A stretch of 64,000 nt of DNA, taken from a virus. Below, piece by piece: positions 12,391 through 59,667 of this stretch. Location: IMG/VR virus record IMGVR_UViG_3300027759_000056, positions 1-64,000 of that record; one strand, written 5' to 3'. Position numbers and translations under genes: made by a program. The notes under the pieces are model-generated. The model had not been told where the DNA came from. It searched no databases and saw nothing but the letters and a program-made list of their open reading frames with translations. The first letter of the stretch is position 1. Every line of letters begins with the position of its first letter.

Positions 12391-13020
12391 ATGAGAAATC
12401 TTTTATTTGTTTTAATGGTTTTATTCATTTCTTCTTGTGAAAAACAAGAGACTTCAGTAGTTGTAAAACCAAAGGTTGTTAAATCTGTTAAAACCCAAAA
12501 AACTATATTTGTTGTTCCTATGGGTAAAACCAGTAATTTTGATGTTAACTACATTGTTAATGAACTAAAACAATTTTACAAATGTGATGTTAAAGTATTA
12601 CCTAAAGTTGAAACACCTGCAATTGCCAAAGTAAATGGTTTGAAAAGATATAGAGCTATCGATATTTTGAATTTCTTATCTACTAAGTACAAAAAGAATA
12701 ACGGAAAAGTATTGGCACTTACTGATGGTGATATTTGTACTGATAGAGAACTTAACGGTATTGTATATAAAAATTGGGGTGTATTTGGATTGGGTAGATT
12801 AAACGATAAACCTTGTGTTATCTCAACTAACAGATTCAAAACAAACTATTACGACAGGTTGTCAAAAGTAACCATCCATGAAATTGGTCATACCTTGGGT
12901 TTAAGTCACTGTGATAACGATAAGAATTGTCTTATGAGTGATGCTAAAGGTAAAGGTGGACAAGTAGATTCTGAGAAAAAATGGATGTGTGATAAATGTA
13001 GAAAAAAAATAAAATTATAG
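12391..13020 (+). CDS. Archaemetzincin-like metalloprotease lipoprotein (209 aa)
   Basis: Signal peptide with lipobox ISSC (Cys16). The C-terminus has HEIGHTLGLSHC, a Cys six residues later, CLM, 17 residues, then CDKC. This follows the archaemetzincin signature HExxHxxGx3C...CxM-x17-CxxC, with one extra residue between the first two cysteines. It should be a zinc protease anchored in the envelope. TACCTTTG ends 4 nt before ATG, so it belongs to the host-type class. Its substrate is unknown. Confidence 0.75.
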   Translation: MRNLLFVLMVLFISSCEKQETSVVVKPKVVKSVKTQKTIFVVPMGKTSNFDVNYIVNELKQFYKCDVKVLPKVETPAIAKVNGLKRYRAIDILNFLSTKYKKNNGKVLALTDGDICTDRELNGIVYKNWGVFGLGRLNDKPCVISTNRFKTNYYDRLSKVTIHEIGHTLGLSHCDNDKNCLMSDAKGKGGQVDSEKKWMCDKCRKKIKL

Positions 13021-20901: not shown

Positions 20902-21723
20902 TTACGCCAACAAATGGTAATATTCTTTGAAGTGTTTAATTCTGTCAGGTAAACCTATGGTTCCACCATTAACTCTTTTTGTTACTGCCGTTACAGTAGC
21001 ATCGTCAGCTCCTTTATCAGAAATTGCATTTAATCCGTTCTTACTGAAGAACCAACCTGCAGATGCCAATGCGTATTTTGTGGCAACCAAATCAGGATTT
21101 GCTACAGTATCTTCACCGATTGATTTAGCGAAAGATGTGTAGTTTTCTTTCCCTGTTAATTGGATATAACCTCTACCTCTGAATTTATAACCTTCTTTAG
21201 TTTCTTCACCACCATTACCCATTCTACCACCATAAACTTTTGATGCGATTTTTTCAGGGTTTCTTGCGTAAGATTCCGCAATGTTACCAGGGAAATATTT
21301 TGGGAAAATCTTTTTAAGACCGTCAGCCGAATAGTTTAAGTTTTCTTGAGTTGCTTTGAATCCACCTGATTCGTGTCCACATTGTGCCAAGAAATGAGCC
21401 AATCTTAAAGGAGTGTTAATTTGGAATTTTTCCATTACTGTTGGAATCTGTGTGATTACTGCATCAGGTACATGTCCTTTTAATTTTTCCAAATTGATTG
21501 GACCACCTTTAGGAATTACAACATCTTCTTTGATTAACGTACCTAATCCAAGTTTCTCTAATGATGCTGGTCCGATGATTCCATCAGCCACCAATCCATT
21601 TTTTGTTTGCCATTCTTTAATTGATTTTTCAGTTCCAGGACCAAAGTTACCATCGGCAACTAATCCTAATTTTGCTTGAAGAGCTTTTACCTCTTCGCCT
21701 TTTGAGCCATTTTTTAATATCAT
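20902..21723 (-). CDS. GH19 endolysin with peptidoglycan-binding domain (273 aa)
   Basis: Residues 1-55 form a PG_binding_1 domain (GSKGEEVKALQAKLGL...DGIIGPASLEKL). Residues from about 80 form a GH19 chitinase/lysozyme domain, with ESGGF carrying a likely catalytic Glu, then RGRGYIQLTG and FFSKNGL. It should cleave peptidoglycan glycan strands at lysis. TATTTAT lies 17 nt upstream. There is no signal peptide, so release would need a holin, possibly 14,811. Confidence 0.9.
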   Translation of the reverse strand: MILKNGSKGEEVKALQAKLGLVADGNFGPGTEKSIKEWQTKNGLVADGIIGPASLEKLGLGTLIKEDVVIPKGGPINLEKLKGHVPDAVITQIPTVMEKFQINTPLRLAHFLAQCGHESGGFKATQENLNYSADGLKKIFPKYFPGNIAESYARNPEKIASKVYGGRMGNGGEETKEGYKFRGRGYIQLTGKENYTSFAKSIGEDTVANPDLVATKYALASAGWFFSKNGLNAISDKGADDATVTAVTKRVNGGTIGLPDRIKHFKEYYHLLA

Positions 21724-21752
21724 AGTATCTTAGTTTTACTATAAATACCACT

Positions 21753-22466
21753 TTAAATGGATAGGTTAAAACCCATAGTAAAATTTTTAATATCGTTTTG
21801 TGCTCCTGTAATTATGAATGATTCAAATGATGTTGAGTAGTTTACCTTAATACTAAATTTTTTATTTAGGTCAAATAAAAATGTTGTTTTTGTATTGGTA
21901 ATATAATCTTTCTTATCCAAAAGGTTTGGTTGATAAAAACCCTCAAATGAGTATGATATTTTGTACTTTTCATTTTTTCCAAACAGTTGGATTCTTGGTG
22001 AAACTCTTAAACCTTTTCTATTTGTTAAATCACTATAATCATTATTAAAGTATAATGTTCCTAATGAAAAAGTACTTTCTAATAACTTTCTTTTGAAAAT
22101 TGTTTTACCATATCCAATACCTGCTTCAACACGCTGATTTACTTTCTTAGAGTATAGAGATGAAATTTGACCAAAAGAAAATATTGAATAATTTTCATCA
22201 ATAACTCTTGGTTGAACTCTCAATACAAAATCATTAATTAATTGGGTATTGTTATTTGTCATCATTTGATATGATGTAGATAATCCCGTTTCAAATTTTT
22301 TCCAACCTACGGAACTAAAAGAATTCAAAAGTATGTTGTCTTGTTTATTAGTATTGGCTTGACTAATACTTCCTGTTAAATCAAATGTAAATTTTGTTTT
22401 AATAGTGTCTTGACTAAAAAGTTGTAATGAGGATAATAAAAGTAAAAATAAAAATAATTGTTTCAT
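21753..22466 (-). CDS. Outer-membrane beta-barrel, DUF481-like (237 aa)
   Basis: Signal peptide (MKQLFLFLLLLSSLQLFSQ), then alternating amphipathic strands ending in a barrel-type strand (NFTMGFNLSI). It fits the DUF481 (YdiY-type) family of outer-membrane proteins. It lies downstream of the exported-protein genes in the same direction. A host-type surface protein in a phage is unusual; it may mask or remodel the outer membrane. Confidence 0.65.
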   Translation of the reverse strand: MKQLFLFLLLLSSLQLFSQDTIKTKFTFDLTGSISQANTNKQDNILLNSFSSVGWKKFETGLSTSYQMMTNNNTQLINDFVLRVQPRVIDENYSIFSFGQISSLYSKKVNQRVEAGIGYGKTIFKRKLLESTFSLGTLYFNNDYSDLTNRKGLRVSPRIQLFGKNEKYKISYSFEGFYQPNLLDKKDYITNTKTTFLFDLNKKFSIKVNYSTSFESFIITGAQNDIKNFTMGFNLSI

Positions 22467-22485
22467 ATTTGTAATTAGTGTAAAG

Positions 22486-23562
22486 TTAATTTCTGTAACC
22501 AGTCCTAACTAAATAATAATTAGAATTTCCTTTATTGGAAAGACCACTAAGTGTGATTGTTTGTACTCCAGGATACGTGGATTTAAGATTTGATGTTGAC
22601 GTATTTATGGTACTCCATTCTGATGAAGTAAATATTCTATAATCAACCATACCTGATTTCCAAGAACGACCAATTATTTTCATATAAATTGAATAAACAT
22701 CTGATATAGAAAGATTGTTATCATCATTAACATCCATTCTATAATAGTCACGAGAATTAAATGATTGTTGTAATACTTTTTGATTAAATGATTTTGCGTC
22801 ACTTACAATAGGTGATAAAATTGTTAATGTGTTAATTCGTAATTGGAAATCATATGAAGTGGCATCTCTTGTTGAACTTATACTATATTTCCCGTTGGCG
22901 TCTGTTGTTGTAGTACTCAATGAAGTGTATGTGGAACTTGTTTTTAATTTACTGTATAATTCTATTGGTACATTTTGAATTCCGACACCTTCTGAATTAT
23001 AAATGTAACCTGTATAACTAAATGGGTCGGTTGCTCCCACAATTCTTGTTTTAAAATCAAAAGTATTACCATAAGAATATGTTCCACATATTACAGGAGA
23101 ACCTGAATATTGCATTACAAATCTCATATACACTTCACCATTATATACTGAAGTTGGGACTGTAAATGTTGCACTTACCGTCTTAGTTCCATTCCATTGA
23201 TAATTTGAACTATGAACCAATTCACCAGCATCGGTTAAAACACCATTACCATTAAAATCAATCCATAGTTTGAAATATTCCATATAGTTACCATTAGTCA
23301 CCGCAGTGTATGATATTGTAATACTTTGTCCTGCTTTAATTCTTGGTACAGTATCTTTTGTATATGCATAATCATAATATCCGGCAGGACTTCCACCAGA
23401 TGTGTTACTAAAACCTTTACTACCGGCAAAAGTCCTTCCGTTTATCGTTACACTAGAAACATATTCACAACAAAAACTTGTAGGTCTACTAGCACACAAA
23501 GGTGACTGAGAATATGACTTCAAGGATATAAATAATGTCAATATGTATACAATCCACTTCAT
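22486..23562 (-). CDS. Exported GEVED and dockerin-like protein (358 aa)
   Basis: Signal peptide, then a GEVED-type domain (LWIDFNGNGVLTDAGELVHSS). A carboxypeptidase-regulatory-like segment follows, then a dockerin-like EF-hand unit (MDVNDDNNLSISDVYSIYMK). These domains occur on secreted Bacteroidota proteins. The same dockerin-like motif is present in the 27,114 protein. No C-terminal T9SS domain is evident. The stop overlaps the next gene start. Confidence 0.7.
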   Translation of the reverse strand: MKWIVYILTLFISLKSYSQSPLCASRPTSFCCEYVSSVTINGRTFAGSKGFSNTSGGSPAGYYDYAYTKDTVPRIKAGQSITISYTAVTNGNYMEYFKLWIDFNGNGVLTDAGELVHSSNYQWNGTKTVSATFTVPTSVYNGEVYMRFVMQYSGSPVICGTYSYGNTFDFKTRIVGATDPFSYTGYIYNSEGVGIQNVPIELYSKLKTSSTYTSLSTTTTDANGKYSISSTRDATSYDFQLRINTLTILSPIVSDAKSFNQKVLQQSFNSRDYYRMDVNDDNNLSISDVYSIYMKIIGRSWKSGMVDYRIFTSSEWSTINTSTSNLKSTYPGVQTITLSGLSNKGNSNYYLVRTGYRN

Positions 23563-24017
23563 TAAATTTTAGAAATACCGTCTTGTAAAGATTTTTTAAC
23601 TGCAGATGCAAAAACACTTTTTTCAAATGGTAAGTTCTCATCTTTCAATTCGGCAAAAGATGCTTTAACTGAAAGTTTTGCTGAACCCTCACCAACATAA
23701 ATTTTATCATTAAATAAAATTTCAGTTTTAACAATTGTGTTCTTTTTTCTAATCATAAATGGACCAAAATTGATACCAACAGTAGGAGCCTCAATTGAAG
23801 TGATATTAACCACAACAGGTTTTCCATCAATACAAATTGTAAACTTTTCACCTAACAATTCTTCAGTCATTTGTTTTATACCGAAAGTGAACCTTTTAGA
23901 TGAAAGGTCAGGGTTTTCAGTTTTGTTGTTAATTTCTTTGACTGTGTAACAGTCCTGTGCGTTTAGGTTGATTATACCCATGAGTATAATACCTAATAGT
24001 ATTATTGTGTTTTTCAT
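23562..24017 (-). CDS. Exported protein of the CsgG-like cluster (151 aa)
   Basis: Signal peptide (MKNTIILLGIILMGIINLNAQ) and a strand-rich mature part (VNITSIEAPTVGINFGPFMI). It overlaps both neighbours by a few bases. Position beside a CsgG-like gene suggests an accessory role like CsgE or CsgF, but I cannot show homology. Confidence 0.6.
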   Translation of the reverse strand: MKNTIILLGIILMGIINLNAQDCYTVKEINNKTENPDLSSKRFTFGIKQMTEELLGEKFTICIDGKPVVVNITSIEAPTVGINFGPFMIRKKNTIVKTEILFNDKIYVGEGSAKLSVKASFAELKDENLPFEKSVFASAVKKSLQDGISKI

Positions 24018-25609
24018 AACATTATTTTACCACCAGTTAATATCTGATAGTTTAAGAATTTATCCGAGTATTGATATGTTCCTGAGAAACTCACATTGAA
24101 TTTAAAGTTTTTGGAAATTGAATAATCCCAAGAACTAAATGGAACCAATAAGACTCCTGAACTCCACCATCTACCTTCGTAGAACTTTGTAAACGGTGAA
24201 TACACGGCTAACATTAATATATTTGCATTAACTTTCTTACCAACCTTAAACATATAAAAACCACCACCAACAGCTGATAAATTTGTGAACACTTCATCAC
24301 TCAAACTACCCACAGTAAAGTTAGCACCACCCATAAGTGACAATCTACCATATCTGTGAGATTCAAGTGCGGTTGTGGTATTAAATAAATTTTTTTCAAA
24401 ATCAACCATAGATGAGTTGGCAAATATTGCCGTATTTGTCTTCTTTTTATTTGTTAATGCGGTGTAAAATGTAAGATTTGAATTATTAATTGTTGTTGTA
24501 AAATTTAATAGAGCTCCTTTTGCTCTTGAATTGTCCGTATTTGACTTTGTCATGGACATAGTAGCCCTAAATTGGTTAGAATTGTCCTCAGCACTCCTAA
24601 TAACAACAATATCACCAGTTCCTATAATAGAACCTGTTTTTGCGGTAGTCTTTGAACTTGGTTTTCCACCACCTGAACTACTTGATTCCGCAGCATTTGC
24701 TACAGAATTGGTTGTTCCACCATTTCCACCCGATTTATTGTCTGTTGGAGTGGTTGTAGGGTCATTTTTGGGTTCTGCAGTACCATTTCCGCCAGAACCA
24801 CCTGAATTCCCCGTATTTGACCCTGAATTCCCCGTATTTCCACCATTTTGACCCGTATTTGACCCTGTGTTACCACCTGAATTCCCCGTATTTGACCCCG
24901 AATTCCCCGTATTTCCGTTATTTTGGGGTGTTTGAGGGTTAGTTGGTGGGTTTGTACCCGTATTTTCACCAGTTTGTGGTGTTTGGGGGTTATTTCCCGT
25001 TTGTGGCTCATTTTTGGGTGTTTGTGGCTCATTTTGGGGTGAATTTGAGCCAGAATTTGGGTTATTTTGACCGATATTTCCTGTACTTGTACCCGATTGG
25101 GTGTTATTACCCCCATTTTCGGTGGTATTTGTACCCGATTGGGTGTTATTTTTGTCATTTTTACCGTTTTTTCCCGAACCTTTCCCCGAACTTTCACCTG
25201 ATGATGAATTATCTACACTATTACTTAATCCACCTGAAGTTATATTTCCAACACTACTAGCAACCGTCATTGTAGATACTGCGGTTACAGAACTTAATGT
25301 TGAGATGATATTTTGTGTTATTATTGTATTTTGTGATACTTGTGTCTTTGTTTTGATTTCATCACAAGGTGCTGAGGCGTATTTGGTTGACAAATCACCT
25401 ACCCATCCTGCAAAATTACCATTATCAAAGTCATCTTTTGTGAATGTATTAACATAACCCAAATAATTTACGGTTACTGATGAATTGGCGTTAGGTATAT
25501 TAATTACCTTAAGTTTTTTTGAACAAGGGTCCACATACGAATATGTGAACCCCTGACCAAAACTGATAGAGGATACCAACAATAATAATATTGAGAATAT
25601 CCACTTCAT
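24014..25609 (-). CDS. Exported protein with long Gly/Asn/Ser/Thr/Pro linker and C-terminal barrel (531 aa)
   Basis: Signal peptide, a small Cys-containing N-terminal domain, and a low-complexity linker of about 140 residues (TGNSGSNTGNSGG-type repeats). The C-terminal ~190 residues have amphipathic strands ending in an aromatic barrel strand. The layout suggests a surface-exposed disordered stalk anchored by an outer-membrane barrel. It sits downstream of the CsgG-like gene in an overlapping operon. No named family recognised. Confidence 0.7.
   Translation of the reverse strand: MKWIFSILLLLVSSISFGQGFTYSYVDPCSKKLKVINIPNANSSVTVNYLGYVNTFTKDDFDNGNFAGWVGDLSTKYASAPCDEIKTKTQVSQNTIITQNIISTLSSVTAVSTMTVASSVGNITSGGLSNSVDNSSSGESSGKGSGKNGKNDKNNTQSGTNTTENGGNNTQSGTSTGNIGQNNPNSGSNSPQNEPQTPKNEPQTGNNPQTPQTGENTGTNPPTNPQTPQNNGNTGNSGSNTGNSGGNTGSNTGQNGGNTGNSGSNTGNSGGSGGNGTAEPKNDPTTTPTDNKSGGNGGTTNSVANAAESSSSGGGKPSSKTTAKTGSIIGTGDIVVIRSAEDNSNQFRATMSMTKSNTDNSRAKGALLNFTTTINNSNLTFYTALTNKKKTNTAIFANSSMVDFEKNLFNTTTALESHRYGRLSLMGGANFTVGSLSDEVFTNLSAVGGGFYMFKVGKKVNANILMLAVYSPFTKFYEGRWWSSGVLLVPFSSWDYSISKNFKFNVSFSGTYQYSDKFLNYQILTGGKIML
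24776..25180. repeat. Imperfect tandem repeats coding the low-complexity linker
   Basis: Short repeats around GAATTCCCCGTATTTGACCC on the plus strand are reused many times and produce long overlapping false frames on both strands. Confidence 0.8.
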
Positions 25610-25974
25610 TAATCTACTGATGTTACGTTAGATAAAGATTGACCATCTTCTTCGTCAACCTTTTGGATTAACATTTTGTCTCTGTCTTCAGAGTTGAACC
25701 AATAGTCAACAACTTTGTTCAAGTTACCAACAAACGCACCCAACAAGATTAATAATAATTCTTTCCAATCTTCACCAATTGTTATATTGAAGAATACCGC
25801 TGAGTTAATTCCAGCGATGATGAAAAAGAATAAGAATAAAATTGCTAAGGTAATATTCCATCTGTTATTTTGCATTTGTTGCAACATGAAATAGAATCTG
25901 TTCTTGTCTTCTACTTTTACATAATCAGGTTTACCTAAACCCAATGTGTTTTTAATTTTTTCTTTAATTGCCAT
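25609..25974 (-). CDS. Membrane protein with two helices (121 aa)
   Basis: A cytoplasmic N-terminus, two hydrophobic helices (WNITLAILFLFFFIIAGINSAVF and LLLILLGAFVGNLNKVV), then an acidic tail. It is co-oriented with the exported-protein genes and overlaps 24,014. It could be the inner-membrane part of the putative export set; this is inference. Confidence 0.65.
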   Translation of the reverse strand: MAIKEKIKNTLGLGKPDYVKVEDKNRFYFMLQQMQNNRWNITLAILFLFFFIIAGINSAVFFNITIGEDWKELLLILLGAFVGNLNKVVDYWFNSEDRDKMLIQKVDEEDGQSLSNVTSVD

Positions 25975-25975
25975 T

Positions 25976-26704
25976 TTAATTTTTGAATACTTCTTTTTTT
26001 ATCAACTTTTCTACCACTCTTACGGTAGATGTTTCCAATGCTTTTTTGGTTGATACACCCACAGTAGACTTGTTAAACTTTGGTCCTTCAATATCACCAA
26101 GAGTTGATGATGTTTTTGTCGTAACCGCCTTACCTTGTCCACTACCTGTGATAACCTCACCAGATTCTGCATCAACAAATCTAACTTGTAAACCAAGTTG
26201 TGTAATTTGTTTGATTGTAACACCTGATGTTTCAACCACCTCATCTTCACCTACAGAAAAGTCATAAACTTCAATGTAGACGAAATACTTAGCTAACTTA
26301 ATCTTACCTTTACCATCAACTTTGTTTTCAGTAAAACCTTTGTTAGACGCTTTGAATTGGTTCACCATTCTCTCTTTTATTTCCAACTTGTCTTCAGTGA
26401 AAACAAATCTTCCAGTCTGTTCCAAATATTCTAATACAATATTTGTAACACCCAAACCAACTCTTGCATCTTTTAATTCAGGATACATCTCATACACCTC
26501 ATCGTTAATACCAATCTTTAAGATTTGAATTGGAATCTGAATTGTGTCTGTGTATGGAGGTAATGAATCCAAAGATTTTTTCTTTTCAAAGCCTGCGGTA
26601 TATTCCTCAGTTTTAACTGAACCTATTTGTGCGTTACACTCTTTAGGTGTTCCACAACTAAATAAAAATAAAGTTAAACCTATTAGTATATTACCAAGGC
26701 GCAT
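25976..26704 (-). CDS. CsgG/HfaB-like outer-membrane lipoprotein (242 aa)
   Basis: Lipobox LFSC (Cys17). The core follows the CsgG layout: VGLGVTNIVLEYLEQTGRFVF (the GlG...L...L..SgrF block), a transmembrane-type pair (AKYFVYIEVYDFSVGEDEVV...), then LGLQVRFVDAESGEVI. CsgG forms the curli secretion channel in the outer membrane. No CsgA-like amyloid repeats are visible nearby. The start overlaps the upstream gene. I am confident of the family, not of the substrate. Confidence 0.75.
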   Translation of the reverse strand: MRLGNILIGLTLFLFSCGTPKECNAQIGSVKTEEYTAGFEKKKSLDSLPPYTDTIQIPIQILKIGINDEVYEMYPELKDARVGLGVTNIVLEYLEQTGRFVFTEDKLEIKERMVNQFKASNKGFTENKVDGKGKIKLAKYFVYIEVYDFSVGEDEVVETSGVTIKQITQLGLQVRFVDAESGEVITGSGQGKAVTTKTSSTLGDIEGPKFNKSTVGVSTKKALETSTVRVVEKLIKKEVFKN

Positions 26705-27023
26705 CTTCAGTTTCGCTTTTCTTTGCCGGTTTAGATTCTGCAGGTGCCGCTTGTTTTTCTACAACAGTTCTTTCTTTGATAACTGTGTTAGTTCCACCAC
26801 CGCCAGCAGTGTTCTTTGACGAATTGTCAACACTTAAATTGATTACAGGTGCCGCCGCTGGGGCTTGTTCTGTTTTAGGTTTTTCTTCGTCATCACCACC
26901 ACCGAATAATGTTGATGTGAACCATGCTCCACCAGCCGTAACCGCGGTAGCAATTGCTCCGATAATGGTTTTTTTCAAACTAGACCAAGTACCGTCATTT
27001 GTTTCTTCTGTTTCTTCACTCAT
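26691..27023 (-). CDS. Tail-anchored type membrane protein (110 aa)
   Basis: One helix (TIIGAIATAVTAGGAWFTSTLF) after a short acidic N-terminus, then a Pro/Ala/Gly-rich tail (QAPAAAPVINLSVDN...GGGG). It is upstream of and overlaps the CsgG-like gene. It may span the periplasm to link the membranes, an inference from layout. Confidence 0.6.
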   Translation of the reverse strand: MSEETEETNDGTWSSLKKTIIGAIATAVTAGGAWFTSTLFGGGDDEEKPKTEQAPAAAPVINLSVDNSSKNTAGGGGTNTVIKERTVVEKQAAPAESKPAKKSETEDAPW

Positions 27024-27065
27024 TTTGTTTTGTATTTTATTTTGGTTTATTTTATTTTTCGGCTA

Positions 27066-27131
27066 TTGGGGGTCAGTGACCCCCGTGTATTAATTAGTTT
27101 TAACTGTTGTGTATTAGTTAGTTTTAACTGC
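27066..27131. repeat. Hairpin and 22-bp direct duplication after the T9SS gene
   Basis: GGGGGTC and GACCCCC form a short hairpin near 27,069-27,085. Two near-identical 22-bp copies (27,086-27,107 and 27,110-27,131, one mismatch) cover the end of the 27,114 gene, so the last codons are duplicated just past the stop. Confidence 0.65.
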
Positions 27132-29006
27132 TCTTTTTACTTCTATCTCTTCTTCTTTTTTCAAAACTGCCAAGTACATTCCATCAGATAAGTCTGACAT
27201 ATCAACTGTGTAAGTGTATTTTCCTGAAGGAGTCATATCACCCATTACACTTTTAACTTCTCTTCCTGTTGCATCAATAATACTTAAAGTTGTATTACCT
27301 TGTTGTTTTATGTTGAAAGAAATTGTTAAATTTGATGTAAATGGATTTGGATAAAGTTCCATATCATTACCAACGTAAACGTGTCCACCCATTCTGAATA
27401 CCTGAACAATACCATCAGTAGGTGTAATGTTTAAATCAATTGCGTCTTTGTTACCAGCAAATTTTCTTGTAACATATAATGGACTTACTCCCCATTGACT
27501 TTGAGGTTTCTTTGCAGAAAATTGAAGTGTGTAAATTAACTCACCATCATTGAATAAGTTGACGTTATTAGTTGGGTCATACCCACCCCATTCAACTTTG
27601 TTCTCTGATGTGTTTATGTATGATAACCATAAAGAAGATTTCAATTCGTTTTTAACGCTTTTGAATTCCAACAATGAAGTATCGTATTTAATCATCAATT
27701 GTAATGCTCCAACGTTGATACCACCAGTCTTTAATCTAACTGGAATGTTTACCAAGTTTCCATCATCAACTTTTAACAGAGGTAAATTAACTTCTATTGT
27801 TTCAAGAATGTTGTCATATTGTGTTGTAACATCAATGATGTGTTTTTTAGCATTTGCAGGATTAACAATTTCAATTGGAGTCATACGAGCTCTGTTGTAA
27901 CCAGTTCCGTTAACGTCACCCATACCTAATACATAATAAGTTACAGAGTCAGGTTGACCTGCGATGATTTGGAATGTGAAGTTTGTTACACCAGGAACTG
28001 TAGATTGTTTACTTGAACTTGAACCGTTAACTGAACTATATTGACTTTCAGTGAAGAACAAGATGTCTTTTCTACTGTTAGCCCAAGAAGTGAATCTTCC
28101 TGAAACTCTTGCGTAAATTCCATAAACGTCTGATACAGTGATTTTATCATCGTTGTTTACGTCAGTAGAATAGAAATCAAATCCAGATGGTGTTAAAGTT
28201 CCTAACACAAATTTGTTAGCTCTTTGTGCATCTGCAGTTGAAACAATTGCTCCCACACCCATCGTATCACCTTTAACCGCGATTCTAACATCCCAAGCAG
28301 TTGTATCAATTTCCACATTAGTAAAATTGAATCTACCTTGAGTATTAGTAACCGATGTTTGAACATAAGACCAAGTTGAAGATGTTTTTAATTTCTTCTC
28401 TAAAGATACACTTAGGTTTTTAGATGCAGTTCCTGTTACGTTAACAAACTTTCCTTTAAACGACATAACTTGTGGTTTAAATTTACCACCAAAGTTTTTA
28501 AGTGTTAAAGTGTAGTCAAGACCTGATTGAGTTGTTGCTGTTTCAGGAAAAGACGCTGTACCAGTAAACTTCATGTCGGTCACACTCAAATATGTTGTTG
28601 AAAGTGCTGTTGTGTGTTTTAATGTAACTTGAAATAATCTACCATCGGGAATAGTAAAAGAACTATTAGTTCCTGTGTAAACCATTGTGATTGTTACATA
28701 ACCACCAGCCGCATTGTCAACATATTGTAAGTCTTGTGAAAATGACGTGTTCATAGATGTTACGGTGTCAACTTTAGCAAAAGCCGCATTGTCGTAAAAC
28801 ACTCTATATTGAACTGCGGTAATGTTTGTTGATGTGTTGTTGTAAAAACACAATCCTATATTTGTTTTCCCAGACCTATAGGTACCTGTTTGATAGGTTG
28901 AGTCCAACATAATGTGAGCACCCGTGGTACTTGGAGTTGGACATGTTTGCGCAAAACCTATCACTGAAGCGCAAATTGTGATTAATGACGTAAGAAGTCT
29001 TTTCAT
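27114..29006 (-). CDS. Secreted cohesin/dockerin-like protein with T9SS sorting domain (630 aa)
   Basis: Signal peptide (MKRLLTSLITICASVIGFAQ). A dockerin-like repeat DVNNDDKITVSDVYGIYARV lies mid-protein, and cohesin-like beta segments lie on both sides. The C-terminal ~80 residues (LYPNPFTSNLTISFN...GMYLAVLKKEEEIEVKRAVK) form a type A T9SS sorting signal. It should be secreted and attached to the cell surface by the host type IX system. It is the first gene of the 29,006-20,902 block. TATTTAT lies upstream on its strand. Confidence 0.8.
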   Translation of the reverse strand: MKRLLTSLITICASVIGFAQTCPTPSTTGAHIMLDSTYQTGTYRSGKTNIGLCFYNNTSTNITAVQYRVFYDNAAFAKVDTVTSMNTSFSQDLQYVDNAAGGYVTITMVYTGTNSSFTIPDGRLFQVTLKHTTALSTTYLSVTDMKFTGTASFPETATTQSGLDYTLTLKNFGGKFKPQVMSFKGKFVNVTGTASKNLSVSLEKKLKTSSTWSYVQTSVTNTQGRFNFTNVEIDTTAWDVRIAVKGDTMGVGAIVSTADAQRANKFVLGTLTPSGFDFYSTDVNNDDKITVSDVYGIYARVSGRFTSWANSRKDILFFTESQYSSVNGSSSSKQSTVPGVTNFTFQIIAGQPDSVTYYVLGMGDVNGTGYNRARMTPIEIVNPANAKKHIIDVTTQYDNILETIEVNLPLLKVDDGNLVNIPVRLKTGGINVGALQLMIKYDTSLLEFKSVKNELKSSLWLSYINTSENKVEWGGYDPTNNVNLFNDGELIYTLQFSAKKPQSQWGVSPLYVTRKFAGNKDAIDLNITPTDGIVQVFRMGGHVYVGNDMELYPNPFTSNLTISFNIKQQGNTTLSIIDATGREVKSVMGDMTPSGKYTYTVDMSDLSDGMYLAVLKKEEEIEVKRAVKTN

Positions 29007-29032
29007 ATTGTAATATCTTGGTATATATAAAT
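29007..29032. promoter_or_regulatory. 26-bp divergent promoter region
   Basis: Only 26 bp separate the divergent starts at 29,006 (minus) and 29,033 (plus). The interval holds TATATATAAATAT, which reads as late-type AT motif in both directions. At least one transcript must be leaderless or nearly so. Confidence 0.5.
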
Positions 29033-29488
29033 ATGGTTAAGCGTCTTCTAGTATTACTTTTTATTCTATCATCAACAAATTTGTTTGGACAAATAAAGAT
29101 TGCCCCCGTTGAGTTTTTATGGGTAAAACGAGTGGACTCTGCTTTAACTATTATTAAAACCTATGATAAAAGTGCTTATGATACACTTACAAAGTATTGT
29201 ACCAACATTGGTTTTTGGAATGGGAAATATTCTTCTATTGATGGAATTAATGAAATCTTAATAACAAAAAATGATGTGTTATCAGGTTCGTTAAATAATA
29301 TAGCCGCGGTGATTGTCCATGAATCAAAACATTTACAATACGTTAACAATAATATTTTGATACCATTAAGTGTTGAAGAGATTGAATGTTTTACATATGA
29401 AAAAAACTTTTTATTAAAAATACCAAATGTTGAATTATGGTTGATTAACAATACTGAAAAAGAAATAAAAAGGTTTCAGGGTAACTAA
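29033..29488 (+). CDS. Exported putative metallopeptidase (151 aa)
   Basis: Signal peptide (MVKRLLVLLFILSSTNLFGQ) and IVHESKHLQYVNN, an HExxH zinc-binding motif with a following EEIEC that could supply the third ligand. A frame starting 15 nt earlier would include the promoter. It should act in the periplasm. Family not identified. Confidence 0.65.
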   Translation: MVKRLLVLLFILSSTNLFGQIKIAPVEFLWVKRVDSALTIIKTYDKSAYDTLTKYCTNIGFWNGKYSSIDGINEILITKNDVLSGSLNNIAAVIVHESKHLQYVNNNILIPLSVEEIECFTYEKNFLLKIPNVELWLINNTEKEIKRFQGN

Positions 29489-29500: not shown

Positions 29501-30601
29501 ATGTTTGATTTATTAACAGAAGTAAAAAAAATGAAAACAATGATGGGTCTTATTAAAGAAGACCAAGATTTGGAATCCATTAACAAACACGCACAAAATA
29601 TTCTGAATATTCTAAAATTCAGTAATTTATACTCATCAACAATTAAAAAACTTATTGATAAAATTATTAAATTTGGTGAAACCAACATTATTGATTTTGA
29701 TTTGATTGAAAAAAATCTTAAAAATATAATGTTAAAAAAAGGTAACCGTAAGAAAAATGTTGAGGATTATTTTTTAAGAATATTTACATCATTAGAGTTT
29801 AGAGAAAAAGGTATTTACGGTATTGAACCCGAAAGTGAAGATTTTGGTTCTAGTATTGAAGACGTTTCAATAGTACCTAAAAAAATCTTTAATAAAGAAT
29901 TATACGGATTACAAGTTGAATTAATTAAATTACAAGATTGGTTAGCTGAAACAGGTAAAACCGTTCTTATTGTTTTTGAAGGTAGAGACAGTGCTGGTAA
30001 AGGTTCATCAATTAAAAAATTTACAGAAAACATGAATCCAAAAGGATTCAAAGTAATTCAACTTGGAATTCCAACACCTGAGGATAGAGCTGATTGGTGG
30101 GGTAGATATAGAAAACAAATTGAACCGGGTAAAATTAATTTATTTGATAGAAGTTGGTACAATAGAGGTTTAGTTGAACCAGTTGCTGGTTATGGTACTC
30201 CTGAAGAATACGAAGACTTTATGGAAAACGTTGAAAACTTTGAAAACTCATTGGTTGAAAATGGTGATTTCCTTTTCAAACTTTGGTTTTCAATCGATAA
30301 AGAAACCATGGCAAAAAGATTTAAACAAAGATTAAGTTCACCATTAAAGAAATGGAAATATTCACCTAACGATGAAAAGATGTTAGATTTATGGGATAGA
30401 TTCACTGAATTCAAAGAAAAATTATTTGACAAAACATCAACAGTAAACCACCCTTGGGTTATATTGGATTCATCAGATAAAAGAGTATCAGGATTAAACT
30501 CCATAAGATATGTTTTACAGAACATACCATACAAAGGGAAAAATAAAGAATTCTTAAGTAAAGAATATCCCGAAGCATTAACAATATTAAAACCAGAATA
30601 A
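29501..30601 (+). CDS. ppk2: Polyphosphate kinase 2 with LLTE N-terminal tag (366 aa)
   Basis: Residues 1-20 (MFDLLTEVKKMKTMMGLIKE) carry two [LI]xE sites. A ~110-residue spacer precedes a full PPK2 domain: Walker A GRDSAGKGS (G161 region), DRADWWGRY, Walker B-like DRSWYNRG (D216), KLWFSIDKETMAKRF. PPK2 transfers phosphate from polyphosphate to nucleoside mono- or diphosphates. TATTTAT lies 4 nt before ATG. The tag suggests packaging in the virion, so the enzyme could raise NTP levels at once after injection. Confidence 0.85.
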   Translation: MFDLLTEVKKMKTMMGLIKEDQDLESINKHAQNILNILKFSNLYSSTIKKLIDKIIKFGETNIIDFDLIEKNLKNIMLKKGNRKKNVEDYFLRIFTSLEFREKGIYGIEPESEDFGSSIEDVSIVPKKIFNKELYGLQVELIKLQDWLAETGKTVLIVFEGRDSAGKGSSIKKFTENMNPKGFKVIQLGIPTPEDRADWWGRYRKQIEPGKINLFDRSWYNRGLVEPVAGYGTPEEYEDFMENVENFENSLVENGDFLFKLWFSIDKETMAKRFKQRLSSPLKKWKYSPNDEKMLDLWDRFTEFKEKLFDKTSTVNHPWVILDSSDKRVSGLNSIRYVLQNIPYKGKNKEFLSKEYPEALTILKPE

Positions 30602-52443: not shown

Positions 52444-52516
52444 GGGACGGTAGCAAAGATGGTCAATGCGCTGGACTGAAAATCCAGTCATGGTGGTTCG
52501 AGTCCACCCCGTCCCA
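52444..52516 (+). tRNA. tRNA-Phe(GAA)
   Basis: GGGACGG/CCGTCCC, loop CTGAAAA, regular T-arm, A73. First gene of array 1. Confidence 0.95.
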
Positions 52517-52524
52517 CAATACAT

Positions 52525-52598
52525 TGGTGATTAGCTCAGTTGGTTAGAGCACTACGCTGATACCGTAGGGGTCACAGGTTCAAATCCTGTATCACCAA
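52525..52598 (+). tRNA. tRNA-Ile(GAU)
   Basis: TGGTGAT/ATCACCA, loop CTGATAC, A73 followed by encoded CCA (52,599-52,601). Confidence 0.95.
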
Positions 52599-52606
52599 CC
52601 ATAAAT

Positions 52607-52677
52607 TACCCTTTCGTCTAACGGCAGGACGAGTGGTTTTGGTCCACTTAGTGGAGGTTCGAATCCTTCAGGGGTAA
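52607..52677 (+). tRNA. tRNA-Gln(UUG)
   Basis: TACCCTT/AGGGGTA, loop TTTTGGT, A73. CCA not encoded. Confidence 0.93.
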
Positions 52678-52683
52678 CAATAT

Positions 52684-52757
52684 GACTTCGTAGCTCAATT
52701 GGCTAGAGCACCGTGCTTTTAACACGGGGGTTTCGGGTTCAAGTCCCGATGGGGTCA
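52684..52757 (+). tRNA. tRNA-Lys(UUU)
   Basis: GACTTCG/TGGGGTC with wobble pairs, loop CTTTTAA, A73. Confidence 0.95.
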
Positions 52758-52763
52758 CAATAT

Positions 52764-52836
52764 CTTTCCTTAGCTCAGTTGGAAGAGCACTTGGCTTACA
52801 TCCAAGATGTCGTTGGTTCAAATCCAACAGGAAAGA
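52764..52836 (+). tRNA. tRNA-Val(UAC)
   Basis: CTTTCCT/AGGAAAG, loop CTTACAT, A73. Confidence 0.95.
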
Positions 52837-52843
52837 CAAAAAT

Positions 52844-52925
52844 GCCAGTATCGCATAGCGGCAATTGCGGCGGATTGTAAACCCGCTCTCATTTGAGTTC
52901 GTAGGTTCGAGTCCTACTGCTGGCA
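52844..52925 (+). tRNA. tRNA-Tyr(GUA)
   Basis: GCCAGTA/TGCTGGC, loop TTGTAAA, long variable arm TCTCATTTGAG as expected for bacterial Tyr, A73. Confidence 0.93.
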
Positions 52926-52930
52926 CAAAA

Positions 52931-52980
52931 CTTATAATCCTCCAAAACTCACTTTTTTTACTAGTTTTGGAGAGTTATAG
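52931..52980. other. Stable hairpin between tRNA-Tyr and tRNA-Cys
   Basis: CTCCAAAACT pairs with AGTTTTGGAG (10 bp), extended by TATAA/TTATA after a 2x2 internal loop; the loop is T-rich. It could be a processing signal. It lacks a T-run after the stem. Confidence 0.5.
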
Positions 52981-52987
52981 AATATAA

Positions 52988-53061
52988 GTCCATATGCCTG
53001 AGAGGTTCAAAGGGACAGTCTGCAAAACTGTTATTCGTTGGTTCGATTCCAACTATGGACT
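52988..53061 (+). tRNA. tRNA-Cys(GCA)
   Basis: GTCCATA/TATGGAC, loop CTGCAAA, U73 as expected for Cys. Confidence 0.93.
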
Positions 53062-53063
53062 CT

Positions 53064-53135
53064 GTGACTGTAGTTCAGTGGTAGAGCATCGGCTTGTGGT
53101 GCCGAGTGTCGTGGGTTCGAATCCCATCAGTCACC
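53064..53135 (+). tRNA. tRNA-His(GUG)
   Basis: GTGACTG/CAGTCAC, loop TTGTGGT, C73. The -1 base is T, not the usual G. Confidence 0.93.
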
Positions 53136-53143
53136 CCAAATAC

Positions 53144-53226
53144 GGAAGTGGTCCGAATGGACGAGGACACCGCCTTGAAAGCGGCTGGCTGTAAAAGGCT
53201 TGGGGGTTCGATTCCCTTCTCTTCCG
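53144..53226 (+). tRNA. tRNA-Ser(UGA), second copy
   Basis: GGAAGTG/CTCTTCC with one mismatch, loop CTTGAAA, long variable arm, G73. Confidence 0.9.
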
Positions 53227-53234
53227 CAAAAAAT

Positions 53235-53309
53235 GGTTCCTTAGTTTAATTGGATAAAACATCTCGCTACGGACGAGAAGATGTGGGGGTTCGAATCCCT
53301 CAGGAATCA
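53235..53309 (+). tRNA. tRNA-Arg(ACG)
   Basis: GGTTCCT/AGGAATC, loop CTACGGA; A34 is normally converted to inosine. A73. Confidence 0.93.
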
Positions 53310-53316
53310 CAACTAC

Positions 53317-53387
53317 GTAAGTGTGGTGTAATGGTAGCATAAAGGTCTCCAAAACTTTTGGCGAGGGTTCGAGTCCTTCCACTTGCG
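53317..53387 (+). tRNA. tRNA-Trp(CCA)
   Basis: GTAAGTG/CACTTGC, loop CTCCAAA, G73. Confidence 0.93.
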
Positions 53388-53393
53388 CAAAAT

Positions 53394-53475
53394 ACCAAAG
53401 TGGCGTAACGGTAGCCGCATTAGTCTTAGAAACTAATGTCCTAAGGGCGTGTGGGTTCGACTCCCACCTTTGGTA
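53394..53475 (+). tRNA. tRNA-Leu(UAG)
   Basis: ACCAAAG/CTTTGGT, loop CTTAGAA, long variable arm, A73. Confidence 0.93.
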
Positions 53476-53486
53476 CAAAAATAAAT

Positions 53487-53568
53487 TGGCAGGTAGCCTA
53501 GAGGTCAGGCAGCAGACTGTTAATCTGCGACGGAAACGTCTACGTGGGTTCGATTCCCACCCTGTCAG
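53487..53568 (+). tRNA. tRNA-Asn(GUU) with long variable arm
   Basis: TGGCAGG/CCTGTCA, loop CTGTTAA, G73. The variable region is 15 nt and forms GACG-GAAA-CGTC. A long arm is expected for Leu, Ser and Tyr but not for Asn. The D-arm is class I type (GCCT/AGGC). Confidence 0.88.
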
Positions 53569-53613
53569 CAAAATATTTTTTGTAAAGTCAAATATCTGTT
53601 GTATATTTGTTGT

Positions 53614-54090
53614 ATGGAAAAGGGGTTTATATCATCTTCAAAAGCAATCAAAGGATATACTGAATCAAAAATTGCCAAATCTGAAAACAACGATTGTGTT
53701 GTTAGAGCAATTGCATCAGCTGCGGATATGGATTATGATTCCGCCCACCAATTCGTTAAAGAAACATTCAATAGAAAAAATGGTAAAGGTACTTTTGGAC
53801 TTGGTACTGGTATGAATTTGTTGTCAAAGAATGGTAAACAAATTAACGGTAAAAACATTCAAATTATTTCTGAAGAACACAACACCATGTTGTATTATGT
53901 GGTAGTTAAAGGTGTAAAAAAATTAAGAGCAACAACAACCGCATCATTCATCAAAAAACACCCTGTTGGTTCTTATGTGGTTGTTGTTAAAGGTCATGCG
54001 TTTACCATCAAAGATGGTGTTGTTATTGGTAACCCTGATGATGGTAAAAAAATGAAAAAACACATTACAGGGGCTTGGAAAATTGGATAA
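53614..54090 (+). CDS. Papain-like cysteine peptidase-type protein (158 aa)
   Basis: NDCVVRAIASAADMDYDSAHQFVKETF places a likely catalytic Cys at the start of a helix. A C-terminal GSYVVVVKGHAFTIKDGVVIGN supplies His and a later Asn/Asp. This order matches a phage family of predicted cysteine peptidases. TATATTTG ends 4 nt before the chosen ATG. It sits inside the tRNA cluster with its own promoter. Confidence 0.7.
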   Translation: MEKGFISSSKAIKGYTESKIAKSENNDCVVRAIASAADMDYDSAHQFVKETFNRKNGKGTFGLGTGMNLLSKNGKQINGKNIQIISEEHNTMLYYVVVKGVKKLRATTTASFIKKHPVGSYVVVVKGHAFTIKDGVVIGNPDDGKKMKKHITGAWKIG

Positions 54091-54097
54091 TATGTTT

Positions 54098-54105
54098 TAA
54101 CTTTG
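54098..54105 (+). promoter_or_regulatory. TAACTTTG promoter inside the tRNA cluster
   Basis: Fits TAnnTTTG, 13 nt before the next tRNA, the same distance as at 48,233. Confidence 0.55.
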
Positions 54106-54117
54106 TATAACAATAAT

Positions 54118-54191
54118 GGTGTGGTAGCTCAGCAGGTAGAGCAGTAGATTGAAACCCTACGTGCCACGTGGTTCGATTCCCGTTCACACCA
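54118..54191 (+). tRNA. tRNA-Phe(GAA)-like, degenerate
   Basis: GGTGTGG/TCACACC acceptor; anticodon loop TTGAAAC (GAA). Position 31-39 is mismatched (A-C), and the T-stem needs a bulged base (ACG-T-GG with CCCGT). It may be a second tRNA-Phe or a decaying copy. Confidence 0.7.
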
Positions 54192-54197
54192 CAAAAT

Positions 54198-54329
54198 AAT
54201 TAGATGGGCGTAATGAGGGATGGTACCCGAGTCCCCAAGATTGGAGGTCACCAGTAATAGGTGGCCGTTGCGTCGTAAGGTTGTCTAATCCGTCCTGAAC
54301 GGTATTCGGTTCGAGTCCGACTCTAATTA
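54198..54329 (+). ncRNA. Expanded tRNA-like RNA 1 (132 nt)
   Basis: AATTAGA pairs perfectly with TCTAATT, the T-arm CGGTTCGAGTCCG is normal, and CCGT/ACGG forms a long variable arm. Instead of an anticodon loop, GATTGG/CTAATC encloses about 40 nt with a 7-bp hairpin (GGTCACC/GGTGGCC). No U33 or anticodon is evident. Either an intron-bearing tRNA or a tRNA mimic. Confidence 0.55.
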
Positions 54330-54330
54330 T

Positions 54331-54407
54331 GAAAAACTAACCCAGTTTCACAATGAGGGCTGATACCTTCGGAGTGGGGGTGACGGTCAGGAAAGACTGA
54401 CAACCAT
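54331..54407 (+). ncRNA. Structured spacer between tRNA-like RNAs
   Basis: Contains hairpins around CCTTCGG and GTCAG-GAAAGA-CTGAC (54,386-54,401). G-rich segments contrast with the AT-rich genome. It has no frame and no T-arm. Confidence 0.35.
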
Positions 54408-54565
54408 AGTCAGGTGGCGGAATTGGTAGACGATAATGGAGTTATACTATCAAACACAGAGGGTGCGGCGTAGATGGGAACTACTACATTATCTCTTGGA
54501 CGCAAGAGAGCAATATAACCCTAACCATTTGGTATAACGTGTAGGTTCGAATCCTACCCTGACTA
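54408..54565 (+). ncRNA. Expanded tRNA-Leu-like RNA 2 (158 nt)
   Basis: The 5' part (AGTCAGGTGGCGGAATTGG) is a textbook tRNA-Leu start. The 3' part has T-arm GTAGGTTCGAATCCTAC and acceptor CCTGACT, A73. The anticodon stem AATGG/CCATT encloses about 85 nt with GTTATA/TATAAC and TCTCTTG/CAAGAGA hairpins. The insertion is too short for a normal group I intron. No U33 at the stem border. Confidence 0.6.
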
Positions 54566-54660
54566 CAAAAACATAAACTCAAGTACCCACACAGTGGTGA
54601 GACGGGCTAAGTAAGATACAATTCCTCGGAACTGGGAGTAGAGAGCTTGAGAGTGTTTTT
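54566..54660 (+). ncRNA. Structured 3' end of tRNA array 1
   Basis: CTCAAG (54,578-54,583) pairs with CTTGAG (54,646-54,651) around inner hairpins (CCAC/GTGG, TTCC/GGAA), followed by six T. It may combine an RNA element with the array terminator. Confidence 0.4.
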
Positions 54661-54671
54661 TAATTAAAAAT

Positions 54672-55355
54672 ATGAAAAATTTAGTAAAAGCAATTATTTT
54701 GGTCATTGTTATAGGAATTTTAGGTTTCATAACAAGTTGGAAAGTTTGGGGTAACAATAAACCAATTGAAGATACCGTTAAAATTGATACGGTAAAAATT
54801 AAACCACAAGACACAATTGTGGATGTTAAAGGAAAATACGTTCTTTTTATTGGTGATTCACATACATCAAATCCTAATGGATGGCAAACAATCTTATCCA
54901 ACAAAACAAAGATGAGAATGAATAACATTTCTGTTGGTGGAAAAACTACAGGTTGGATGTTAGAAAGGGCAAAAGAATCAATTCACGAGAATTTAGATTA
55001 TTGTTTTATCTATGGTGGTGCCAATGATATGTTTAACAGTAAAATTACTATTGAAAGTGCCATAAAGAACATTCAAAGAATTGTTAATATTTGTAATTCC
55101 AAAGGTGTTAAACCAGTTGTGATTACGGGATTTGACCCCCTTACTTGTATTAACACACCAGAAAATCCAAACTATAAATTTAAGTATTCCAAATTTCAGA
55201 ATGAATTGATTAAAAAAATTGTTGGTGGAAAGGTGATTAATACTCGTGTGATTACAAAATCGGATTGTTGGGATGGACTTTGTCATATGGCACCATCAGG
55301 ACATAAAAAAATTGGAAATTGTGTTATCAAAGAAATGAAGTTTAAGACATATTAA
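54672..55355 (+). CDS. Membrane-anchored SGNH/GDSL hydrolase (227 aa)
   Basis: N-terminal membrane helix (ILVIVIGILGFITSWKVW), then SGNH blocks: FIGDSHTS (nucleophile Ser), ISVGG, YGGAND, and C-terminal GLCHMAPSGH. Such enzymes deacylate or deacetylate lipids and sugars, including surface polysaccharides. It should face the periplasm. No close upstream promoter motif is evident. Confidence 0.8.
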   Translation: MKNLVKAIILVIVIGILGFITSWKVWGNNKPIEDTVKIDTVKIKPQDTIVDVKGKYVLFIGDSHTSNPNGWQTILSNKTKMRMNNISVGGKTTGWMLERAKESIHENLDYCFIYGGANDMFNSKITIESAIKNIQRIVNICNSKGVKPVVITGFDPLTCINTPENPNYKFKYSKFQNELIKKIVGGKVINTRVITKSDCWDGLCHMAPSGHKKIGNCVIKEMKFKTY

Positions 55356-55376
55356 CACATCAGTATATTTATTGAT

Positions 55377-55814
55377 ATGGAAATTACAAAAAGAGACCTT
55401 TTAAATGGTTTATCATCAAAATCAAATCCAGCAACTGAAACTGCAGATGTGGTTGATATGATTGCAACATTACTTCATTCAAGAAATCAGGCTCATGTTT
55501 TTCATTGGCAAACAAAATCACAATCATCATTTGCTGAACATATGGCCTTAGGTACGTATTACGATGAGATTGTTGAATTAATTGATAATATTGTTGAAAG
55601 TTATCAAGGAAAATACGAAATAATTACTGGTTATAAAACAATTAAAACAGTTGATTATAAATCAACAGAACAAGTAATATCTTATTTTAAAGAATTAGAT
55701 GAAAATATTGAAAAAAATAGAACATCGGTTAAAGAATCCTATATTCAAAATCAAATTGATGGAGTTCAAGAATTGATTTACTCAACATTATACAAATTAA
55801 GATTCTTAAAATAA
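55377..55814 (+). CDS. Ferritin/Dps-like protein, DUF5856 type (145 aa)
   Basis: Four-helix pattern with HVFHWQTKSQSSFAEHMALGTYYDEIVELIDNIVESYQG, which resembles Dps-like phage proteins grouped as DUF5856. Dps proteins bind iron or DNA. TATTTAT is 4 nt before ATG, so a virion or late role is possible. MEITKRDLLNGLSSK has no clear [LI]xE tag. Confidence 0.7.
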   Translation: MEITKRDLLNGLSSKSNPATETADVVDMIATLLHSRNQAHVFHWQTKSQSSFAEHMALGTYYDEIVELIDNIVESYQGKYEIITGYKTIKTVDYKSTEQVISYFKELDENIEKNRTSVKESYIQNQIDGVQELIYSTLYKLRFLK

Positions 55815-55849
55815 TTGACGAATCACGGTTTTAAACATATATTTGCCTC

Positions 55850-56461
55850 ATGGCTAAATACACACTTAATACCTATGGATGGTCTTTTGAGGCTATCTGC
55901 AAATCTCTAACTGACGAACAAGTCCAAATTATTAAAGACAAAATGGAAGAAGAAGGTTTTTCGGAACTCCATGAAATCCGTTTTGATTTGGATGAACTAT
56001 TGGACCTTGATTTTTGGGACGGTGAAATATTTCACAAAACCGAAGCGTTTGACAATGGTACAATGCACTTTGAACTTCTTGATGAAGAAGAAAATAAAGT
56101 ATTAGAGTTTGGTATTGGTGAAACCGCCGACTTATACGAAACAATTGAAGATTTTGAAGAAAAGTATGAGTATAGAGGTTATAGTCCGATTCCTGAAGAA
56201 AAAGGACCAACCAATTTGTATTTAAGCATAGATGAAAACAAAGGTGGGATTTTTACATTCAAACTTGAATCTGATACCATACCGACACCATCGGATTTTA
56301 CTTACTCAACAGGTTCAATAGACACAACTGATGGTGATTATGATTTTATTGACAAAATTTTCTTTAAAGGACAACCATTAGAAATTGAAGATTGTTTGGA
56401 TAATTCAGGGAAATCATCCTCATGTATGATTTATACATTGGATGGTGAAACCATAGAATAA
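55850..56461 (+). CDS. Hypothetical acidic protein (203 aa)
   Basis: MAKYTLNTYGWSFEAICKSL...FDLDELLDLDFWDGEIFHKTEAF, strand-rich acidic. TATATTTG ends 4 nt before ATG. I associate the TYGWSFEA...L.D start with phage proteins of unknown role. Confidence 0.65.
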   Translation: MAKYTLNTYGWSFEAICKSLTDEQVQIIKDKMEEEGFSELHEIRFDLDELLDLDFWDGEIFHKTEAFDNGTMHFELLDEEENKVLEFGIGETADLYETIEDFEEKYEYRGYSPIPEEKGPTNLYLSIDENKGGIFTFKLESDTIPTPSDFTYSTGSIDTTDGDYDFIDKIFFKGQPLEIEDCLDNSGKSSSCMIYTLDGETIE

Positions 56462-56465
56462 TTAT

Positions 56466-56539
56466 GGCGAGGTAGCTCAGTCGGTTAGAGCGCAGGATTC
56501 ATAACCCTGAGGTGGGGGGTTCAATTCCCTCCCTCGCTA
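56466..56539 (+). tRNA. tRNA-Met(CAU) or tRNA-Ile2
   Basis: GGCGAGG/CCTCGCT, loop TTCATAA, A73. The anticodon stem CAGGA/CCCTG has one mismatch. It is one of four CAU tRNAs here; elongator Met or lysidine-modified Ile cannot be separated by eye. Confidence 0.9.
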
Positions 56540-56568
56540 CAAATACATAATTGTGAGTATTTATATAT

Positions 56569-58122: not shown

Positions 58123-58150
58123 TTCTTATTAGTGTCTTATACTTTTGATA

Positions 58151-59419: not shown

Positions 59420-59449
59420 TTGACACTTTTCAAAAGTTTGATATATTTA
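59420..59449 (+). promoter_or_regulatory. Promoter P1 of tRNA array 2
   Basis: TTGACA (59,420) and TATATTTA (59,442), the same 22-nt spacing as array 1, with A replacing the final G of the -7 consensus. Confidence 0.5.
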
Positions 59450-59476
59450 ATAAGAAATTAAATAATAATACATTCA

Positions 59477-59598: not shown

Positions 59599-59606
59599 GT
59601 GTTTGT

Positions 59607-59637: not shown

Positions 59638-59667
59638 TAGTGTTGAAAAACACAACAGAACAAAAAA

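Follow-up and report, generated by a model that had tools for sequence, protein, structure and literature searches.

The window analysed here comprises the first 64 kb of the 112-kb virus record IMGVR_UViG_3300027759_000056. It contains a block of nine open reading frames (ORFs), all located on the minus strand and spanning positions 29006 to 20902, which encode, among others, an exported protein with a CsgG-like fold, an outer-membrane barrel protein, and a protein with a sorting tail of the type IX secretion system (T9SS). Consecutive ORFs overlap at four of the eight junctions (by 14, 1, 4, and 1 bp) and are separated by gaps of 1, 19, 29, and 90 bp at the remaining four, and the block is operon-like. 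An earlier note, made from the sequence alone, had described nine co-directed genes, most of them overlapping; the number and direction of the genes were borne out, whereas overlap applies to half of the junctions. The features of the block are as follows (window coordinates).

27114..29006, minus strand: T9C (630 amino acids), with a signal peptide, an N-terminal unit with a TTR-like stretch, a dockerin loop (28128-28163), a cohesin-like domain (approximately 27396-27803), and a T9SS type A sorting tail (27132-27356)
26691..27023, minus strand: TM110 (110 amino acids), with a short hydrophobic N-terminal segment, a disordered tail, and a C-terminal EDAPW motif, as read from the alignment
25976..26704, minus strand: CsgG/PelC-fold exported protein (242 amino acids), with a lipobox in the window phage and the first hairpin at 26171-26287
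25609..25974, minus strand: TM121, an optional inner-membrane protein with two predicted transmembrane (TM) segments, as read from the alignment
24014..25609, minus strand: STALK (531 amino acids), with a signal peptide, an N-terminal beta domain plus helix (25253-25552), a linker, and a predicted 12-strand outer-membrane barrel (24017-24631)
23562..24017, minus strand: E151 (151 amino acids), an exported paralogue of the CsgG-like protein
22486..23562, minus strand: GEV (358 amino acids), exported, with a GEVED head (23050-23277), a dockerin loop (22699-22734), and a scaffold of TTR, dockerin, and C-terminal modules
21753..22466, minus strand: DUF481 outer-membrane barrel (Pfam E 1.5e-5), within the transcription unit of the window phage
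20902..21723, minus strand: endolysin, with peptidoglycan-binding and GH19 domains

The phage origin of this block is well established. The virus record carries a T4-type Gp23 capsid gene at approximately 86-88 kb, and a syntenic block (gp13-gp19) is present in the isolated Flavobacterium phage immuto (MW353175; 160 kb), whose host is Flavobacterium sp. LMO8. Immuto is only distantly related to the window phage: their terminases, portal proteins, and capsid proteins are 27%, 35%, and 44% identical, respectively, whereas their CsgG-like proteins share 62% identity. A pattern scan retrieved relatives of the CsgG-like protein from at least 277 viral contigs, several of which exceed 250 kb (the largest being 434 kb). 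The same kind of scan applied to 84,980 bacterial and archaeal genomes yielded one match, which is phage DNA, since its 254-kb contig bears a T4-type Gp23 capsid gene as well. Similarly, when 148 and 395 Bacteroidota genomes were searched with profiles, no chromosomal match appeared, the Gp23-bearing contig being the only hit. Gp23 itself was present in 18 of 25 tested phage records. The possibility that the block is a host contaminant joined to phage sequence, which had been raised beforehand, is thus ruled out by the synteny with immuto, the dozens of distinct viral contigs, and the capsid gene on the sole bacterial match. The block is a phage cassette of large Bacteroidota viruses.

Linkage of the genes was counted on distinct contigs of sufficient length to contain the gene concerned, with the CsgG-like protein, T9C, and E151 as three separately scanned baits whose contig sets partly overlap. 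The gene order T9C - TM110 - (two-TM protein) - CsgG - STALK - (GEV) - E151 recurred with small permutations. Around the CsgG-like gene, T9C (52/52), TM110 (58/58), STALK (48/48), GEV (36/36), and E151 (44/44) were always found, and all on the same strand as the bait. With T9C as bait, TM110 (52/52), the CsgG-like gene (47/47), STALK (41/41), and E151 (38/38) were likewise constant, and with E151 as bait the CsgG-like gene (36/36), STALK (37/37), TM110 (34/35), and T9C (9/9) were recovered. Hence, T9C, TM110, the CsgG-like protein, STALK, and E151 form a core that is essentially always linked and co-directed, and that GEV joins. Other genes were not constant next to the CsgG-like gene, namely TM121 (35/52), a gene for an exported HExxH protein (25/30), and the endolysin gene (19/30, on the same strand in 12). 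DUF481 gave one match among 136 loci. It lies outside the conserved core, and the endolysin is a frequent neighbour and not a core component. The stronger conservation of the CsgG-like protein compared with terminase, portal, and capsid proteins, together with the nearly exceptionless linkage of five to six genes, suggests that the cassette serves a function central to this phage group and is no optional extra. Signal-like N-termini were found in the CsgG-like protein (44/44), E151 (29/29), STALK (26/28), T9C (13/13), and GEV (54/60), compared with nine of 85 control ORFs.

The assignment of the CsgG-like protein rests on its fold, as neither a sequence-profile search of the PDB with its alignment nor a comparison of that alignment with the E. 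coli CsgG sequence alone, a sequence confirmed to agree with PDB entries (hhalign probability 1.1, not significant), gave a match. An AlphaFold2 model based on 44 relatives (predicted local distance difference test 71.9, predicted template-modelling score 0.64) has CsgG chains as its best PDB matches (Foldseek E 6.7e-8; VIA Z 13.1, root-mean-square deviation 3.4, 162 aligned residues), followed in VIA by Cj1090c (Z 10.7) and PelC (Z 10.3), and by LptE and FlgT (approximately 8.8). The Pfam CsgG family (PF03783) did not match the window protein and matched two of 26 relatives weakly (E 5.7e-4 at best). In the counterpart of the first membrane hairpin of CsgG (residues 149-169), E153, D154, and E155 are invariant or nearly so among the 44 aligned rows, and position 158 is usually charged. 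These charges lie on both faces, which, as a sequence argument, leaves no apolar face for an amphipathic membrane hairpin. A lipobox occurs in the window protein and in 12 of the 44 rows by pattern (approximately 14 by eye), the others carrying ordinary signal peptides. Because of the charged hairpin and the mostly absent lipobox, the protein more likely resembles a periplasmic ring subunit of the PelC type than a curli pore. The earlier designation of a CsgG-type lipoprotein is thus retained as to the fold and the lipobox of the window protein, but not as a curli-like pore or as a lipoprotein throughout the family. E151 and the CsgG-like protein are paralogues (hhalign probability 96.9, E 1.7e-10), and the E151 profile matches CsgG-like ORFs at E<1e-6 (E 4.6e-7 in G001); against the PDB, this profile gave only weak matches to ribosomal protein S1.

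In the AlphaFold2 model of STALK, a beta domain plus helix (residues 21-119), in which two Cys residues are invariant in close relatives, is followed by a disordered linker rich in Asn, Gly, and Ser (approximately 120-318) and a 12-strand barrel (327-530). A sequence search of the PDB returned a low-complexity match only. By structure comparison with VIA, the model resembles the translocator of NalP (1uyn; Z 25.5 over 229 residues, pore helix included), KdgM (Z 19.1), and FapF (Z 18.4); the helix is placed in the pore with moderate confidence. STALK is therefore modelled as ending in a 12-strand barrel that resembles autotransporter and FapF channels. TM110 is probably associated with the inner membrane, judging from the hydrophobicity of its N-terminal segment. 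Between TM110 and the CsgG-like gene, several loci carry differing short two-TM proteins that are seemingly interchangeable (L119:8759-9001, L094:8685-8981, L129:8699-8992, and window 25609-25974). Searches with these proteins gave no useful match in PHROGs and no named holin family at a meaningful E-value. An extra protein with one TM segment and a coil is encoded between the CsgG-like gene and STALK in two loci (L119:9711-10082 and L124:9660-9980), the latter with a weak Rz-spanin-like match (E 0.015).

The domain calls that had been made for T9C, GEV, the DUF481 barrel, and the endolysin were all confirmed. T9C matches the T9SS tail families PF18962 (E 1e-11) and TIGR04183 (E 3e-10) and the cohesin family PF00963 (E 4e-7), and its PDB profile matches comprise a cohesin (6kg8, E 0.005), a dockerin (4uyp_B, E 0.007), and the T9SS-tailed protein 5jvk. 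It is split into two genes (approximately 365 and 250 amino acids) in immuto, L124, L126, and L133. T9SS tails are present once per phage record in 24 of 25 records and twice in the remaining one. GEV of the window phage contains a GEVED domain (Pfam E 1e-13), and its TTR, dockerin, and C-terminal modules are shared with the N-terminal unit of T9C. Exactly one canonical 12-residue dockerin-type calcium loop was found in 49 of 62 T9C and 47 of 62 GEV sequences, compared with approximately 1e-4 in shuffled sequences. Among 60 GEV representatives, the heads were Lectin_C (35), laminin-G (12), PA14 (5), GEVED (5), and Ig_7 (2). In 156 of 400 random pairs the heads were less than 15% identical, with a median scaffold identity of 33% in those pairs. 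From sequence comparison, GEV thus reads as a constant scaffold whose head is exchanged from one phage to the next. The lectin heads contain EPN and WND motifs, which in C-type lectins point to mannose-type sugars; among PDB entries, the profile of GEV finds mannose receptors and langerin. Two heads with the full EPN and WND motifs (L046:7612-8595 and L050:10607-11584) are conserved in sequence between phages and not diversified, and are thus no obvious target of a diversity-generating system.

We assign a probability of roughly 0.5 to the reading that the cassette encodes a surface-display apparatus, in which a dedicated phage envelope complex would act together with the host T9SS to present a glycan-binding head on the infected cell. 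The two CsgG-fold proteins (25976-26704 and 23562-24017) may assemble into a periplasmic ring. PelC is a CsgG-like periplasmic ring protein that is paired with the outer-membrane barrel PelB in exopolysaccharide export; in a comparable manner, the ring would join the inner-membrane-associated TM110, and optionally the two-TM protein, to the outer-membrane barrel of STALK. This ring-barrel complex may export or anchor surface proteins, T9C leaving the cell through the host T9SS. GEV would dock on the T9C cohesin in a calcium-dependent manner, its lectin head facing the cell exterior. There, the head may bind surface glycans of the same cell, thereby masking phage receptors and excluding other phages. 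Alternatively, it may bind neighbouring cells or particles, the resulting aggregation keeping new hosts near the released virions. Several points weigh against this reading. The membrane segment of TM110 is weakly hydrophobic, both the ring assembly and the contact between ring and barrel are steps that we infer, as is the export route of GEV, which lacks a T9SS tail in the window phage, and no T9C or GEV protein has more than one canonical calcium loop, compared with two in classical dockerins. More broadly, the cassette suggests that these phages remake the look or stickiness of their host during infection. A bolder proposal, which we put forward tentatively and with the odds against it, is that the cassette represents an obligate, phage-only trans-envelope apparatus of T4-type large Bacteroidota phages, a type of secretion and display system with no known counterpart among cells or viruses, in which a twin CsgG-fold periplasmic complex with its own autotransporter-like barrel would export or clamp a cohesin-dockerin scaffold displaying a host-matched lectin.

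An unlikely alternative is that the cassette is a late lysis machine breaching the outer envelope, with the two-TM protein as holin and with the CsgG-fold ring and the barrel spanning the periplasm and opening the outer membrane. The endolysin gene lies directly downstream in the window and close by in 19 of the 30 eligible loci, the slot between TM110 and the CsgG-like gene holds non-homologous short two-TM proteins in the way that holins are replaced, L119 and L124 add the one-TM coil protein with, in L124, its weak spanin-like match, and for phage Melnitz a role of curli pores in regulating lysis has been proposed (PMC9004378). However, the endolysin is often absent or on the opposite strand, so that linkage to endolysin or holin is not constant, the two-TM proteins reach no named holin family, and lysis leaves no clear role for the lectin heads and the T9SS tail. 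Moreover, the cassette of immuto sits among replication and nucleotide genes, approximately 28 kb from the holin and chitinase genes and far from the virion gene cluster. This placement is easier to reconcile with a role in infected cells that are still alive than with lysis or virion assembly, and it weakens the suggestion of the earlier note that the block may help release.

Secretion of the type VIII (curli-like) kind, by which the CsgG-like protein would form an outer-membrane pore exporting an adhesin or fibre, has a decidedly small chance of being correct. The fold and the weak Pfam matches in relatives agree with it, and such modules are known in pelagiphages (PMC9599517, PMC7029224), but the charged hairpin leaves no apolar face, most relatives lack the lipobox, and a separate barrel protein is always present. 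Also, no Pfam or NCBIfam match to curlin (CsgA/B), CsgE, or CsgF was obtained at E<=1 among the ten scanned proteins, although remote forms are possible. Glycan capture and uptake to feed the infected cell, in which the lectins would hold polysaccharide, the barrel would import it, and the HExxH protein would act as a helper hydrolase, would account for the lectin, PA14, and LamG heads and for a barrel with porin-like matches such as KdgM; it is very improbable, as neither a SusC/SusD-type pair nor a TonB-dependent receptor was found among the scanned block proteins, and the endolysin was their sole polysaccharide-degrading enzyme. Finally, decoration of virions instead of cells hardly comes into consideration, since signal peptides, the T9SS tail, and the distance between the immuto cassette and the virion genes speak against it, even though tail fibres typically carry swappable glycan-binding domains, and laminin-G domains are present in fibres of jumbo phages (PMC7824862).

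The proposed surface-display apparatus shares parts with several known systems. As in the PelB/PelC pair, a CsgG-like protein resembling PelC is accompanied by an outer-membrane barrel, but polysaccharide synthase genes were not found in the block, and the barrel, of the 12-strand autotransporter/FapF type, has a periplasmic or plug domain to itself. STALK shares with FapF and type Va autotransporters the 12-strand barrel and, in the model, the helix in the pore; it differs by a disordered linker of approximately 200 residues between helix and barrel and by an identity of approximately 10%. No Fap gene set turned up near STALK, although no search was aimed at Fap partners. The cellulosome likewise combines a surface-anchored cohesin with dockerin-bearing proteins that have interchangeable binding modules, an arrangement that is predicted here from sequence; the cassette differs in its single-loop dockerins, its T9SS anchoring, and its phage origin, and no cellulase domains were seen. 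The type VIII modules carried by pelagiphages and phage Melnitz (PMC7029224, PMC9599517, PMC9004378) similarly comprise conserved sets of phage envelope genes with an exported CsgG-fold protein, and they may alter the infected-cell surface. In contrast, the present cassette has no curlin, CsgF, or CsgE family match, its CsgG-like protein lacks apolar hairpins, and it adds a 12-strand barrel, a CsgG paralogue, T9SS sorting, and dockerin-lectin proteins. Cryophage T9SS cargo proteins also carry type A sorting tails, vary between phage variants (one with PA14), and have been suggested to act in superinfection exclusion (PMC7468147). These are stand-alone variable genes, whereas the present cassette contains one conserved T9SS protein, the variability residing in its tail-less partner. 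Both kinds of phage module have in common with the cassette the notion that the surface of the infected cell is remodelled; the cassette stands apart in its parts and in keeping a constant exporter or anchor distinct from a swappable lectin.

This conserved phage cassette for the envelope and cell surface has apparently not been described before, as no paper on it, or on phage dockerins together with cohesins, was found in a literature search that omits most subscription journals. The idea of the earlier note that a coat or secretion system is built during infection is upheld as regards an envelope assembly, T9SS sorting, and cohesin/dockerin units, with the DUF481 barrel falling outside the conserved unit. 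Features that escaped that note are the exchangeable lectin heads, the paralogue of the CsgG-like protein (23562-24017), the autotransporter/FapF-like nature of the barrel, and the adjacent exported HExxH protein. Phage immuto on Flavobacterium LMO8 offers a defined, isolated system in which the reasons for phage remodelling of the infected-cell surface can be studied directly, and old guesses about sibling capture and superinfection exclusion become testable. In addition, the cassette may yield a compact, phage-built platform for lectin surface display.

Upstream of T9C, the HExxH protein is encoded divergently:

29018..29488, plus strand: HExxH...E exported protein, with ATG 29033 as the likely start

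It carries an export signal too, and H101, E102, H105, E121, and E128 are invariant in 22 aligned sequences. It probably acts as a secreted zinc peptidase and accompanies the cassette on either strand. The cassette is further adjoined by a gene for polyphosphate kinase 2 (PPK2; 29501-30601, E 3.8e-66), which is unusual for a phage. Elsewhere in the window, ARAGORN detected 29 transfer RNA genes, most of them in a dense array (52444-62201), and genes were found for a metallopeptidase (12391-13020; M54/M10-like match, E 6.6e-10) and a class I/II aminotransferase (58145-59419; E 1.2e-38).

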